Positions 2,100 to 18,440 of a DNA stretch of 27,985 bases are shown piece by piece. The stretch comes from a virus, in the IMG/VR virus record IMGVR_UViG_3300045125_000044, positions 1 to 27,985 of that record; one strand, written 5' to 3'. Numbering within the stretch: position 1 is the stretch's first letter; every line of letters starts with the position of its first letter. The notes beneath the pieces were generated by a model that saw only the letters and a program-made list of their open reading frames with translations, made no database searches and was not told the origin of the DNA. The position numbers and the translations under genes are program-made.

Positions 2100-2345
2100 C
2101 GCGGCGGGGAAGCAATAGCTTCGTCAGCGGAAGCTCTTGACCCGCTTTCCACAGCCGACGAATTGCTTGGACAGTTTCAAGTTGTGCCTCCCTCTCCCTT
2201 GCAGCCGCCCGCTCACGCTCTTCGCGGCGGACTTGTCTTTCTCGCGCTCCACATACCACTTGCCGGCCAGAATGCCCAGCGCCAGGACGATCAGCCAGTC
2301 CGGCAGACGACGCAACCAGTCCATAAACCTGTCCACAATCGTCAT
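2032..2345 (-). CDS. Rz: Rz-like inner-membrane spanin
   Basis: Starts at ATG 2343-2345, overlapping the endolysin stop as ATGA. The N-terminus MTIVDRFMDWLRRLPDW is followed by one membrane helix (WLIVLALGILAGKWYV) and a charged, coiled-coil periplasmic part. A frame change near 2240 joins VEREKDKSAA to ERERAAAREREAQLETVQAI, then RRLWKAGQELPL, ending at 2032. The unshifted frame stops at 2124. The N-in single anchor plus coiled coil, the place immediately after a lysozyme gene, and the lipoprotein gene overlapping the 3' end together make an i-spanin the best reading. About 103 residues, shorter than lambda Rz (153). Confidence 0.65.
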
Positions 2346-3372
2346 TTCAACGGCCTCGTCGCCTTGAGCTGGCCCCACTTCTGCAGCGCCTCGCCGATGC
2401 ACATGACCAAGAAGCCGGCCATCAGCTCGGCGATCACCGGGTCCGAAGCGCCCGTCAGCAGCGCATTGGACCCCGTCCACGTCAGCGCCAGGCGGCCGGC
2501 GACGATCAGGAACAAGCCCCAGAAGCGCCGGGAAAGGAGCATAGACTTGGCGCTCGCCCACGCCGCATCCGGGCCCATAGGCCGCTGCGTTGACCGCCTT
2601 TGCCTGCGCCTCGACGGGCGGGGCTGGCGGTGGTGGTGGGGGCGGCGGCGGTGGAGGAGCTGGCGGCAGTGGAGGTTTGACCGGCTCCGGCTTGGGCGGC
2701 GGCTCAACCACCACCGCAACTGGCGGCGGTGTCGGAGCGGCCGGAATGATCGGCGGCGCTCGGGAACGCCAGCGCGGATCTGCGTCGTGGTGAGATCCTG
2801 CCTTGCTCTCTGGAGGACTTCCTCCAGCGTCGTCGTTTTCGCGAAGTCGATGAAGCCCTTATCGTCCGCCGTCAGTTGAATGAGGTGCGGCGCCGTCGCC
2901 CCCTCCCATGGCAACCCGGACCACATGCACGCCTCGGCCAGGCGGCGGCGGTAAAGCCCGCGCAGGGGCTTGCCTCCGGCACGGCACGCGCGGGGAAATT
3001 CAAGCAGCGCGCCCGGCATAATCGCGTGGCCTTCAGCTTCGCTAACAGCGTCTCTAGGATGCGGCCAAGGTTGTAAACGTAAGACACCAGCGCGTCGAGA
3101 CTGGCCCTGTGTCAGCGGGACCTCGGGTATCTCTCTCCGCACGATCGCTGCGTGCTCTTCCAGCTCGGCCTTCAGGCGCTTGTTGGCCTCAGCGATTGAG
3201 ATTGTATCGCCGGGTTTGACGTCATCCGTGAACCCGTAACCAATGGTCCAGATGCCAGCCGGGCACTGATACGCCACGGGCCTGAACGCCTCGAAGTGGC
3301 GCACCAGCCGGTCGCAATCCTCAGAGACCAGCAGGCTTTCGGAAGCCTTGCGCGGGGTATCTCAATTGCCAT
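2342..3372 (-). CDS. GH24 endolysin with Pro-rich linker and C-terminal membrane helices
   Basis: A muramidase that cuts the N-acetylmuramic acid to N-acetylglucosamine bonds of peptidoglycan. From ATG 3370-3372 the frame shifts after MAIEIPR into RHFEAFRPVAYQCPAGIW, then TIGYGF. This is the GH24 catalytic arrangement E-(8 residues)-C-(5 residues)-T, with Cys at the usual Asp position. A second shift near 3110 carries the domain on through YVYNLGRIL and FPRACRAGGKPLRGLYRRR, with FIDFAKTTTLEEVLQRAR closing it. Next comes a frame with many prolines (EPPPKPEPVKPPLPPAPP and more), then KSMLLSRRFWGLFLIVAG, a first hydrophobic helix, and a second around IAELMAGFLVMCIGEALQ. It ends at 2342, coupled to Rz. 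About 340 residues, against about 150-170 for a simple GH24 endolysin. Confidence 0.8.
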
Positions 3373-8129: not shown

Positions 8130-10766
8130 TCACGTCCCATTCGCGGCTGTACTTGTGACTGTCTGTCGCCTGTGCCAATTCCGGTTCCGATGCCGAGCGC
8201 TCAGGGCCGTCCGCAACCATCTATCGGGGTTATCGATCCCCGACAACCTGGCCCAATTCCTGAACGCATCGCTGTTCTTCGCAGCGTTGAATATGCGCTG
8301 ATTGACGGCCTGCTTGGTCGAGATGTTAATTACAAGTTGCTGCCATTCTGGCGAGGCAAACAACTCTCCGGCTGCGTTCAGGACTTTCTTGTTTCCCTGC
8401 GTTAAGACGCTTGTCAGCATGGCGCTCGTCGCCCGGCAACGGGTCCGGGCCATTGCTCCACCTGGCCACTGTTGCCGATCCCATGACAGCCTGTCTTCCC
8501 AGAGGAGAGCGAAGGACTTCTCTAATCAATCCCTCAGCCATCATTCCCTGAACAAGCGCCTGGTTAGCCTTGCCGGTTGTCATGACCTGCGCGCGTGCGT
8601 CTGTGATGCGCTTTGATATCTCATAAAGATCCCGCAGGAACTTGTCTCCTCCGGTCCGAGCGTCGTCGCCACGGTCTTGTAAATTTCCGAATTGCCGCCG
8701 GAGCCCCTGATAGAGGTTGACGTATTTGGAGAACCCGAAGCCGTTGGTTTTCTCCTCGCGTGCTGCGCCGGCAATGGCGCTGGCGACTGCGCGTTTCCTG
8801 AGATCCTCGGGCAGAGAGCGGACGACGCGATTAAAGCCCGTAATGTCGCCCTTGGCGCCGCTCTGGATCGTTGACACCAGTTTGCGGGCAATGGACCCGT
8901 TCCGCTCGTCACCGAACAGGCTGACAATCCCGTCCTCCAGCGCCTTGCGTTTTGCTACGATCTGGCTTGCTACCCGAAGGTCCGCGCGCAGGGCATCCCC
9001 GCCAACCTGCTGCGCGTAGGACAGTTGATCTTCGCTCAACGCGCCATAAAGACGCTTCAGGATGCCACTGTTGACGTCCTTGTAGGGACCGCTCGCGCGC
9101 TGCAATGCCTGGCCGACATCATTCTTCATGCGCATCAGGGCAGTATATGTCACCGGTTTCTCACGCCCCGGAGACGCCATGTCCATGAGTTCGCGCTCAA
9201 GGGATGTCAGTTTTGAAGTATCACCTCCAAGATCGCTCACAACGCTGTCAATCAAACGGCGGGAGTTGACCATATCGACGGTGGGGGCGACACCAGCTTT
9301 GGAAGGAAAAGCTGCTGCGGTTGCTTTAGCCATGCGCTCTGCTTCCGCAGCCTCACGCGCAGCCTTTCCCGGACTAATAGCCTCCGCTGCTTTTAGCCAT
9401 GCGCTCTGCTTCCGCAGCCTCACGCGCAGCCTTTCCCGGACTAATAGCCTCCGCTGCTTTAGCCATGCGCTTCTGCTTCCGCATCAAAAGCGGCTTTGGG
9501 AGGAGGGTGAAGCGCGAGTAGCGCTAGCTGCCGGCGCTTCCGCCCTAAGAAGTTTTGCATTTATCCGCGCATACATCTCGTCTGCTTGCTTTTGCAGATC
9601 CCTTTGCGTGGTGTTCATCGACTGCAAGACAGTGTCGGAAATTTCTGCAAGATCGGGCGATCCATCTATCATCGCCATCGCCTCGTCCGCCTGCGTGGCG
9701 GCGCGCTCAACTGCATCCGTCCACGCAGCGCTTGCCACCGTTCCCGGCATTGAGCGTGTCAGTCCGATCGCTTCCTTGAGTTGCGTATGGTCGATCAGGA
9801 CATCCGGCGGGAGATCAATTCCGAGACGACTTGCGGCGGCGGGGCTTCGGGGTTGATCGCCGCAGCTTTGGCCAGCCGATCAACCGCCTGCTGGCTTCCC
9901 ATGCCGCCACGGGCTGCAAGGTTTGCGTCCCTTGCAACGTCTTCGTAAGTCATCGGAATGCGCTCACGATGGGCGCTTGGCCCCACGGGAACGCGAAGCG
10001 TGACGTTTGTCTGATTTCCGAAATCCTGTTCCAGCATTGCGCGCGATGCCGGGCCGCCAGGGCCAAATCCACGCAACCCGCCGATCATGGATGTCCCCAT
10101 GCCTCCGGCAAGACCGCCCAGCAAGGCCCGGCGCCGATCTGCACAAGCGGAGAAGCGCCTTCCTGACGCATCTTTTCAGCCGCGGCGGCTCCGGCTGCGC
10201 CTGCTACAGTCTGGGCCACTGGAGCTTCTGCTGCGACTTGGGCAACACGCTGCGTTAGTGTTCCCGGCGCTGCCCAGCCGCTACGCTGCGAGCCAGACCC
10301 ACGCCACCAAGCGCCCCAGCAGCGCCAGCGGTTGTCTTCTCGGCCAGTTGTCCGGCTTCTGTTTGCGGGCGCGGCATTCCGGCTGCGTCCATAAGGGCGT
10401 TAAGGGCGTCTGTCGGCTTGGTTAGTTGCGTTCCGAAAAGAGCATTGACGCCGTCAACCAGTGGATCACCTACGAACTGGGACAGGGCCATGGCGCTAAC
10501 GCCAGCCGCGGCGCCGGGAAGTCCGCCGCCAACCGCAGCCCCTCCAAGACCGGCGCTGAGATATGGCGTCACGCCACGGCTAACACCCGCCAGAACGTCA
10601 GTTGCCGTTTCAACGCGGTCCCATGGTGGAGCCCGTCTGCTGCTGGTTGTTGAGCCGCTTCCCTTTCAGCGATCCTGCGAGCAGCGATCTGCAACGCTTC
10701 GTCAGGTGATCCGGCGCGGACCACCATGATGGAACCATCACTGAGCCTGACGTCATATTCTTCCAT
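8130..10766 (-). CDS. Large DNA-ejection protein (P22 gp16-like position)
   Basis: Starts MEEYDVRLSDGSIMVVRAGS at ATG 10764-10766, a short N-terminal domain of the DGSxxxVxAxSPDEAL type. Glycine/alanine-rich hydrophobic segments follow (YLSAGLGGAAVGGGLPGAAA; AGLAGGLAGGMGTSMIGGLR), suited to crossing a membrane. The rest is helical: RSMPGTVASAAWTDAVERAA, a repeated EAERMAKAAEAISPGKAARE block, and a long domain to FRNWARLSGIDNPDRWLRTA. About 870 residues with five or six frame changes. It is the last and largest of three consecutive ejection-type genes, matching the order gp7-gp20-gp16 in P22. Such proteins leave the virion with the DNA and form the channel through the envelope. The match is by position and composition, not by a recognised motif. 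Confidence 0.65.
9324..9483 (-). repeat. 66-bp tandem coding repeat in ejection protein
   Basis: A 66-base unit (22 codons, EAERMAKAAEAISPGKAARE plus two residues) occurs twice almost without change, with AGCCATGCGCTCTGCTTCCG at 9328 and 9395 and a partial third copy from 9461. The first spacing is 67 because of one extra T (TTTT against TTT), which breaks the frame there. The third copy has an extra T in GCGCTTCTGC. The repeat extends an alpha-helical coil. Confidence 0.85.
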
Positions 10767-14612: not shown

Positions 14613-16116
14613 TACCAGGCCAGCGGCTCGAGCCGCGCCTCAAGCCAGGCGAAACTCAGGAAAGCGTCACTGTCGCCGGAGAACCGCTGGATACGCCAGT
14701 TTCGCATTGCGCCCTGCTGCATCCAGACCAGCCGCTTGGCGCGGTTGCCGATCCGTTCCGGCGCGGATAAACTTCTGCTGACTGTAAGTCACACCATCAT
14801 CTGAATACTGCGTGGAGATCGTCGGATCGATCCCCAGCGCAACCCGACCCGTCAGCGCCACCAGTTCAAGGTCATGGACGATGACCCCTCGTCCTTCGTT
14901 GTAGATGATTGGCGTTGAGAATGACCATCCAACTTTCTGGTCCCAGTGTCGCGAAGTGTTGTCCGTGAGATATCCGAAAAGAGGAGACTGCGTGTCAGCA
15001 GTGTTCCATCGCTCGTAACAGTAAACCAATTTGCTGGATCGATATTCACCTAGTCCGCTGAGACTTGAAGTCAAAATATGCCAAACAGGTTGTTGCATCG
15101 CTCTGCTGACCATGGCATCGTAAACAAGCGTCTGATCAGGAAGGTGGATAAGAAGTTGCTGACAATCGCGATCAAGGCGCGTCTCCATGAAGGCGTTAGC
15201 TAGCTGCGCTTCCGTGTATCCTTGCAGGATGATATCCACCTCGCGCGTAGATATCTTCTGGCTGACGCCATTCGCGCCAAGCCAGACGGCGTTGGCCTCG
15301 CCGTAATCCAGACCCGACAAAAGCAATCTGGTCGATGAATGCGCAGTTGGCGTTGACCCCCACGCTTCCCCGGTGATCTGCGCGCCTTGAATACGCTCGA
15401 ACGGAAAACCGCTGGTTCCGACGTTCTGGAACACTTCGATGGTGTGGCGGTTGACCGCATACACTTCATTCCGCAGCTTTATCAGCCCGACGACAGGGTC
15501 AGGATCGATCTCGCTTGAGCCATACTTGAGAGGATCAACAGCGAAAGGATTGTTCAGCTCGGTGATGACGAGAAATTCGCCATCGGTTGTCATGAAGTAG
15601 CCATCCACCCAGACCACATCCACCACGGTCCCAAGGTCCGGGTCGGTCACCTGCGCCAACGTTGTTCCATCGTAGAGATAAAGCTTCCCATCCGCCGCGA
15701 TGGCTGAGATAATCGAAGCTATAAACCATTATAGCTCGATCCGTGCCGGTGATGGTTCCAATCGTCGTCACCACGCCGGTTGCGCTGATGCTGACCAGGC
15801 TGGTTCCCATCACCCGATACAGAATGTTATTCCACTCCACCCCGCCACGATCAAGGCCAGGACCAATTCCACGATTATTGTTGGTTGATCGTCCGTTTAT
15901 ATAACTGCCATTTCGCGTCAGGATTTCTGATCCGTCGCGCGCAATAATTGTCGGAGTTGTCACCTCATACTCAGTCACTATACCATCCGCCGGGCGCAGA
16001 TATCCCGAGCTGATCCCCTGCGGCTGGGAAATCGGCGCCAGATTGCGCGGGTAAGCAACGCGAAAGTCAGCGTTGCTATCCGAAAACACTCCGACAGAAT
16101 AGGTATCTGAGCCAAT
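14612..16116 (-). CDS. Packaged-DNA stabilisation protein, P22 gp10-like
   Basis: This tail-hub protein seals the portal-gp4 channel after packaging. Two large frame segments join near 15700. The first begins VGVFSDSNADFRVAYPRNLA and has SSGYLRPADGIVTEYEV and NILYRVMGTSLVSISATG. The second has DVVWVDGYFMTTDGEFLVIT, AVNRHTIEVFQNVGTSGFPF, VWLGANGVSQKISTREVDII, CQQLLIHLPDQTLVYDAM and SRHWDQKVGWSF. The motif LLIHLPxxTLVYDA and the order of repeated beta-propeller-like segments match P22 gp10. A shift near 14740 leads to the C-terminal DAFLSFAWLEARLEPLAW and TAA 14612-14614. The start is unclear: KIGSDTYSVG lies upstream in frame, but no ATG is visible. About 500 residues (P22 gp10: 472). Confidence 0.8.
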
Positions 16117-16350: not shown

Positions 16351-18440
16351 TTAATTTCCTTCCAGTTGTTTAACGCGAACAGACAATTCCTTAATGGAAT
16401 TAACCAGATACCAGATCAGCGGATCTGTGCTTACCGACAGGACGCCGGTGCTGTTCTCAGTGACGCAAGCAGGCAGGACCTGTTGGATTTCCTGCGCGAT
16501 GACGCCGATCTGCACGCCTTGGCGGTCGATATGCCGCCGACTGCGGCAGGTCCGTGATTTCCTCGGGCGCGCGGTACTCGAACGTCCTGACGTTGAGCGC
16601 TTCGATAGTGGCAAGCCCACCGCCAAAATCCGAGATGTTTTTCTTGATCCTTGCGTCGGAGGTTGTTTCCAAGTCGTCACGTTCTTTTCGTTGTACGCGC
16701 CATTGGTGCCGCCGATAAAAGCAGTGTCGTTGCCTTTGCCGGTGAGGCCCTCGCCCACAACAGTCTGATCGTTGCCGCCTGCTGCGCTGGGGTCGGAGTT
16801 TGCTCCAATAATGGTGTTGCGCGCACCGGTCGTAATGACGTCGCCAGCAACACGTCCGCAGCCACGTTATTAAATCCTGTGGTGTTTGCGCCGAGAGCAA
16901 ACTGGCCAACAGCAACGTTCTCGCCACCAGTTGTATTAGCTACAAGCGCAGTTTCTCCAACCGCTACGTTGTTTGAGGCAGTTGTGTTTGCCTGAAGAGC
17001 ATTTCGCCCAACCGCAGTATTAGTACCGCCCGTTGTGTTGTTTTGAAGCGTTTGAAAGCCAAGGGCAGTGTTATTAGAACCCGATGTGTTAACTTGGAGC
17101 GCTGTAAAACCAACAGCTGTCAAAGCCGTACCAGTGTTGTTGGCGACGGTTGAAGAGCCTTGCGCTGCGCCAAAACCGACAGCGGTATTGTTAGCGGTAT
17201 TGTAGTACAGCAAAGCATACCGGCCTGCTGCCGTGTTATTTGAGGCTGTTGTGTTGGAAAAGAGTGCTGCTCCACCAATAGCGGTGTTGTCGGATCCAGT
17301 TGTGTTTGCCTGCAACGCGCTTACGCCAAGAGCGGAGTTAGTTGTGCCCGTTGTATTGCTAGCAAGCGCGCTATTGCCAACCGCTGTTCCGCTGCCTCCA
17401 GACGTGTTGGCTTGAAGCGCTGCGTAACCAACAGCCGTCAGACCTGTAACCCGTGTTGTTGGCGACAGTCGTTGATCCTCGCGCGGCTTCGTAGCCAACA
17501 GCGACGTTGTTGGAAGTGTTGTAATAAAGAAGCGCGCTTGCCCCAACCGCGCTGTTGCTGCTGGCCGTGGTGTTACTTTGAAGCGCGGAAATTCCAACAG
17601 CAGTGTTGTTGATGCCCGTTGTGTTGGAAAGAAGTGAGTTGCCGCCTAAAGCGCTGTTGCTACCGCCTGTTGTGTTTGCGTTAAGAGAGTACGCGCCAAT
17701 AGCTGTGTTGGTGGAACCAGACGTATTATTAATGAGCGTGTTAATTCCGACTGCGGTAAGCGTAGTACCCGTGTTGTTAGCTACGGTTGTTGAGCCTCGC
17801 GCGGCTTGAAAACCAACAGCAACGTTGTTGTCGGTATCAAAATACCTAAGCGCGTTGGACCCAAACGCAGCGTTGTTGCCAGTGGTTGTAGCAGAAGCCA
17901 GCGCGTTTACGCCAAGCGCAGAGTTATTGCCACCTGTGGTTATGCCGGCTCCTGCAAGCGTACCAACAGCTGTGTTGCTGCCGCCTGTGGTATCTGCGGC
18001 CAAGGCGTTCCAACCGACAGCTGTGTTGCTAGAACCCGTCAGGCTGGCGCTGTTCAGCGTTTGCACACCCAGCGCCGTGTTAGAGGTTACAGCCGTCTGG
18101 CCGCCTCGCCCGATTGTAAGCGTGTCAATGGATGCGCGCGTCGAGAACGTCTGCACGCCGCTCCATGTCGCTGCACCGGCCACAGTCCCTGACAGCGTGG
18201 GAGATGACAGCGTCTTGTTGCTGAGAGTGTCGCTGCTGGAGATCGTCGGGACAGCTACGCCAACCGCCGTCACCGCGCCCGCTTTGGTCACTTTAAACTG
18301 ACTAACACCGCCAACCTGGAGGTCAATGAGGCGGAGCCAGCGGCACTCGCCGTGTCCGTAACGTTCATGCCAATGGCGGTGAAAGTCGTTCCGCCAGAGT
18401 TCCATGTGTCCGTTAACGCATAAATGTTCTGCGTCGCCAC
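16351..18440 (-). CDS. Repetitive tail fiber with C-terminal peptidase S74 chaperone
   Basis: The likely start is GTG 18438-18440 with GAGG eight bases upstream. N-terminus VATQNIYALTDTWNSGGTTF, then LIDLQVGGVSQFKVTKAGAV and LSNKTLSSPTLSGTVAGAAT, a collar-like segment common to such fibers. A long array of NTTGxxNTAVGxxALxx repeats (16860-18070) follows, then the S74 domain: TTSDARIKKNISDFGGGLAT, NVRTFEYR, and after one shift GVQIGVIAQEIQQVLPACVT with PLIWYLVNSIKELSVRVKQL at the end. The SDxRxK motif holds the Ser (codon 16658-16660) and the Lys five residues on that make up the self-cleaving dyad in endosialidase-type chaperones. S74 domains trimerise fibers, then cut themselves off. About 700 residues with at least five frame changes. 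Confidence 0.85.
16860..18070 (-). repeat. Nested fiber repeats: 51-bp units within 318-bp super-repeats
   Basis: The protein unit is about 17 residues, for example NTTGGTNTAVGRNALQA, NTTASNNVAVGETALVA and NTTGGENVAVGQFALGA. Superimposed is a longer block holding ALLYYNTxNNVAVGxxAARG and STTVANNTG, which recurs with landmark bases at 17143, 17462 and 17780, spacings of 319 and 318 bases. One inserted A near 17450 (CTGTAACCCG against GTAGTACCCG) accounts for the extra base, so the true period is probably 318, or 106 codons. Confidence 0.85.

Follow-up and report, generated by a model that had tools for sequence, protein, structure and literature searches.

The DNA analysed here (the window, comprising all 27985 bases of the IMG/VR virus record IMGVR_UViG_3300045125_000044) carries on its minus strand a tail-fiber gene that adjoins a head-closure gene. 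The frame of the fiber gene is broken five times within 2.1 kb (near 18325, 17448, 16850, 16667 and 16533) and, when read through, encodes a protein that begins with a conserved N-terminal end, continues through a linker into the shaft and closes with a conserved end cap followed by a Peptidase_S74 domain. The first-pass annotation had placed the repeats of this fiber at 16860-18070; repeats do lie there, but the gene itself is wider, running from 18440 to 16351. The features of the locus are as follows.

14667..16089 (minus strand): head-closure / tail-stabilisation protein (P22 gp10-like), phrog_578 in two frames
16351..18440 (minus strand): tail-fiber gene, ~690 amino acids as read through, from three-frame translation and segment mapping, PHROG 4636
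18130..18440 (minus strand): conserved N-terminal end of the fiber (TDTWNxxGTTFTxIxxNVTDTASAAGSLLLDLQVGGxSQF), common to 11 relatives
16860..18078 (minus strand): shaft of 23 units, mostly of 17 residues (NTAVGxxALxxNTTGxx), from segmentation, autocorrelation, DNA repeats and the AlphaFold2 model
17506..17823 (minus strand): 106-residue block 1, residues 208-313, one 22-residue unit, four 17-residue units and one 16-residue unit
17187..17505 (minus strand): 106-residue block 2, residues 314-419, spanning the frame break near 17448
16869..17186 (minus strand): 106-residue block 3, residues 420-525, with a final unit of 17 instead of 16 residues
17758..17823 and about 17439..17505 (minus strand): two 22-residue long units, from unit segmentation
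17121..17186 (minus strand): third 22-residue long unit (NxAVGxxAAxGSxTVANNTGxx), presumed exchange point relative to contig L002
16669..16845 (minus strand): shaft end cap upstream of the cleavage site (GDVITTGARNTIIG...NGAYNEKNVTTW), conserved, with invariant columns
16354..16666 (minus strand): Peptidase_S74 chaperone domain, with predicted catalytic Ser591 (codon near 16660) and Lys596

Six stretches of the fiber matched the tail spike family PHROG 4636 (E 1.4e-70), other tail families matched its end, and the annotated relatives include putative tail fibers of Pelagibacter phage HTVC112P and of Roseobacter phages; the NCBIfam profiles yielded nothing useful. One relative, L060, has a T7 tail-fiber N-terminal domain fused to the same type of shaft and an S74 domain. 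This L060 protein (L060:34-5679) is 1882 residues long and has 53 shaft units between the two domains. The P22 gp10-like neighbour of the window fiber matches the 'phage stabilization protein' of MW202867 at 57% and its counterpart in L006 at 75%, and the order of the genes is P22-like and syntenic with L006. Judged by these matches and by its position, the gene product belongs to a P22-like podovirus and is its tail fiber (or a thin tail spike). The N-terminal end of the protein, common to L002, L004, L006, L009, L018, L023, L081, L089, L092, L093 and L095, is likely the virion-attachment part, and its C-terminal 161 residues are 75-86% identical to those of relatives. A scan of bacterial genomes found no relative that would point to a host.

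Elsewhere in the window, a 67-base tandem repeat (9322-9483, 2.4 copies, 96% matching) lies at the upstream end of, and just above, an open reading frame that matches a DNA transfer (ejection) protein family (8326-9423, minus strand); 67 is not a multiple of three, so its copies shift the frame. At 787-1010 there is a tandem array very rich in G (GGCGGCGGC..., with periods from 9 to 64), and an endolysin-like open reading frame (phrog_7, E 1.5e-23) lies at 2342-3304 on the minus strand. Over the window as a whole (1-27985), the fiber, major head protein and head-closure genes are split over at least two frames, which suggests record-wide sequencing indels.

The two-level periodicity proposed in the first-pass annotation, a 17-residue unit within a 106-codon block, is confirmed. 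At the DNA level, three copies of a 113-nt repeat, found at 17130, 17449 and 17767, are spaced 319 and 318 nt apart (the former because a 318-nt block is joined there by an extra base at the frame break, ~17448, between the copies), and 51-nt (17-codon) repeats are also present. Self-identity of the shaft protein (residues 123-528 of the read-through) peaked at lag 106 (0.563) and at lag 17 (0.429), whereas in 2000 shuffles no lag exceeded 0.225. None of 5000 random orderings of the identical shaft units reached the lag-106 value. Segmentation gave unit lengths, in order, of 18, 17, 17, 17, 16, 22, 17x4, 16, 22, 17x4, 16, 22 and 17x4. The 106-residue block is a composite of units and not a separate domain: a constant pair formed by a 16-residue unit (…ALLYYNTxN) and a 22-residue unit (NxAVGxxAARGSTTVANNTGxx) is followed by four ordinary 17-residue units. 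In fibers with the window-type N-terminal end the 22-residue unit is invariably preceded by the 16-residue unit, and in four more distant fibers (L084, L086, L087, L090) a unit with GSxTVANNTG occurs in other surroundings.

Comparison of repeat number between related phages, with relatives taken from viral contigs, revealed counts that differ by whole units. Among fibers sharing the window N-terminal end, the 16+22 pair is absent from L018 and L023, occurs once in L006, L009, L011, L077, L089 and L091-L093, twice in L004, three times in the window and L081, and five times in L002, while the spacing from pair to pair is 89, 106 or 123 residues only (that is, 38+17n). These counts and spacings bear out the earlier suggestion that the shaft changes length in steps. 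The strongest comparison is with L006, which is syntenic with the window (three neighbour genes match at 68%, 52% and 75%) and has its fiber at the same position of the locus in an unbroken frame; by unit sums its shaft measures 175 residues and that of the window 387, a difference of 212, or 2x106. At the sequence level, this is a whole-unit change of length at one locus.

At the C-terminal end, PF13884 matched residues 591-655 of the fiber at 48.3 bits (cut-off 22) and was matched by 9/9 relatives in alignment A1. Ser591 and Lys596 (+5) of the SDARIK motif are invariant in nine relatives, with the spacing of the S74 Ser-Lys catalytic dyad (PMC3742443). The S74 cap claimed in the first-pass annotation is thus well founded in both the family match and the conserved dyad, and the dyad suggests that the fiber would cleave itself before Ser591. 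An unrelated short cap (…GDRYFHDRIRLLERTSDPAKPAEGNMIVWMSDG…DHSAGTLWP) is found in L081, L089, L091, L092, L093 and L095, with a related variant in L077. Fibers with the short cap (GDRYFHDRIRL...AGTLWP) keep the window-type N-terminal end and the 17-residue shaft, 16+22 pairs included, and the S74 domain is therefore not obligatory for this shaft. From these combinations, the N-terminal end, the length of the shaft and the cap seem to be cassettes that can be swapped.

Five frame breaks within 2.1 kb are what might be expected if the breaks or the repeats were artefactual, or if the gene were a decaying pseudogene, an explanation that we consider very improbable. The same block layout lies in unbroken frames in L002, L003, L004 and L081, which come from different samples, and these intact-frame copies in independent contigs rule out the blocks as an assembly artefact. 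The major head and head-closure proteins of the window are each split over two frames too; the splitting of other core genes speaks for sequencing indels along the whole contig and not for decay of the fiber, whose C-terminal dN/dS is about 0.1 and whose protein similarity to relatives is high. Just as improbable is the proposal that the gene gained its blocks by recent tandem duplication within itself and that this actively alters its length. The regular 318-nt spacing and the conserved block layout would suit it, and three blocks there are, but to call them near-copies was generous: they share only 60-66% protein identity and just 60-63% DNA identity, and 62-70% of their synonymous sites have changed, i.e. 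are saturated. Blocks also resemble those of another phage more closely than they resemble one another, window block 2 being 87% identical in amino acids to L002 block 3, above every within-gene pair, and window block 3 being 73% identical to L002 block 5. In the block tree, window block 2 joined L002 block 3 (93/90), and L002 block 4 was joined by the junction region of block 3 (91/84); most other forks were open, and the three window blocks did not group together. The closeness of block 2 to an L002 block and the joins in the tree therefore make the duplications older than the split from L002. As for later change, window residues 336-419 follow L002 units u19-u23 successively at 87-88% identity, and past the 22-residue unit the window matches L002 u32-u35 (62/87 identities vs 48/87 for the units in register), with exactly one 123-residue block skipped and the changeover on the 22-residue unit or beside it. 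In its simplest reading this looks like a single unequal recombination between two long units, with the breakpoint placed from one diverged protein pair (71% vs 55% identity).

The fold of the shaft was addressed with a single-chain AlphaFold2 model of residues 333-528, built from an alignment of 13 window and locus sequences. It predicts a regular beta-solenoid with a strand every 17 residues (pLDDT 81, pTM 0.77), and it is least confident around the 22-residue unit, where a looser or protruding turn may lie. A full-length model of the L006 fiber was poor (pLDDT 57), too weak for use, and its PDB search was uninformative. A match to LbH_EIF2B (E 0.005 with the fiber as a whole and 2e-4 with one segment) fell far under the 54-bit cut-off and was rejected as a chance likeness of two repetitive Gly/Asn sequences. 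The first-pass annotation had suggested that the shaft may adopt a YadA-type left-handed beta-roll, a reading in which a phage tail would carry an adhesin-like head in the form of a parallel beta-roll. In its favour are the similarity of NTAVGxxA to the SVAIGxxA of YadA-head repeats, a sub-threshold PF05658 (YadA_head) match as the best among 24 relatives (L002 fiber, 15 bits vs a cut-off of 25), the presence of UspA1 among the non-significant fold matches of the poor L006 model (E 3.5), and a report of one tail fiber from a marine phage that has both YadA-like and S74 domains (PMC3909814). We nonetheless regard it as unlikely, given that PF05658 had no match in a six-frame search of the window even at E<=10 and none above cut-off in the 24 relatives, that a PDB sequence search with the fiber gave no match, and that Foldseek found no PDB match to the single-chain shaft model at E<=0.001. 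The weak matches of that model (E>=0.9) were mainly parallel beta-helices of the pectate-lyase-like and tailspike kinds, and the 50 PDB matches listed included no YadA-type head (YadA, BpaC, UspA1). The unit, whose Gly is nearly invariant, has a period of 17 with variants of 16 and 22, as against layers of 14 residues, or 15 in UspA1, in the solved rolls (PMC9543794). A whole-protein Pfam scan likewise found no membrane beta-barrel anchor family of trimeric autotransporter adhesins, the C terminus being S74. What remains is a local likeness of NTAVG to SVAIG, and the analogy is weakened.

Drawing on sequence comparison and single-chain prediction, we favour, with a probability of roughly 0.7, an explanation in which the gene encodes a P22-like podovirus fiber with a solenoid shaft that serves as a ruler, an S74 cap, blocks of old origin and later unequal recombination. 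The N-terminal end would bind to the virion and the middle of the fiber would form a beta-solenoid with one turn per 17-residue unit, while the S74 domain would aid trimerisation of the chains and then cut itself off before Ser591. The shaft would act as a ruler whose length differs only by whole units between related phages, the 16+22 pair providing the larger step. Its three blocks would have originated long before the present phage. Repeats would later have recombined unequally with one another and so changed the length, and at least one such exchange would have fallen on the conserved 22-residue unit or beside it. During infection, length may set the reach to the receptor through different surface layers.

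A broader generalisation is offered tentatively and with the odds against it, namely that the 17-residue NTAVG unit represents a kind of beta-solenoid that is widespread in viruses and has no solved representative, that the 22-residue unit (GSxTVANNTG) is both exchange point and protruding turn, and that length and cap are swapped as cassettes (N-terminal end, 38+17n shaft, S74 or other cap). If the unit is such a solenoid, a single crystal structure would account for the shafts of a large number of environmental viruses. What makes the fiber most useful is its quantised length rule together with its swappable cap: phage fibers need to reach and grip their receptor, and relatives whose shafts vary only in whole units between conserved ends offer a clean, naturally occurring series on the function of length. 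The rule itself (16+22 pair, 38+17n spacing, swappable caps) is testable on sequences that are already public.

Among known systems, YadA-type heads (BpaC included) share with the shaft short repeats and an invariant Gly after an Ala-aliphatic pair, and repeats of repeats also occur in the BpaC head (triplets, three-layer repeat expansion; PMC9543794), but the window fiber differs from them in its 17- rather than 14-residue period, in having no profile or fold match, and in ending in S74 and not in a beta-barrel anchor. Resemblance to the shaft model was found among predicted beta-solenoids in BFVD (the FhaB-like protein of Bodo saltans virus and the chlorovirus-glyco-repeat protein of Tenacibaculum phage pT24), whose matches were mostly significant in Foldseek (E 2e-10 to 9e-3, TM to query up to 0.85) and which share the sequence repeats of the shaft at 23-45% identity, although they are predicted models only and stand in another domain context. 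For length variation through repeats in phage tails, a related case from a different type of protein is reported in the crAssphage BACON repeats (PMC6949934). The C-terminal domain agrees with Peptidase_S74 chaperones of the endosialidase type in its place, its above-cut-off match and its Ser/Lys(+5) dyad, and nothing excludes its membership; the difference is that related fibers have the domain replaced by an unrelated short cap. Also close are the PHROG 4636 tail spike proteins and the S74-ended tail fibers of marine phages (Pelagibacter HTVC112P gp48, Roseobacter CRP-1, Prochlorococcus P-SSM2), with which the window fiber shares 17-residue NTAVG-type shaft repeats, which by tblastn cover 74-88% of it at 31-37% identity, and most of which have a C-terminal S74 domain. 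The differences are the paired 16+22 units at 38+17n spacing and the N-terminal end of the window fiber, both of which this analysis encountered in no more than some of the environmental contigs.
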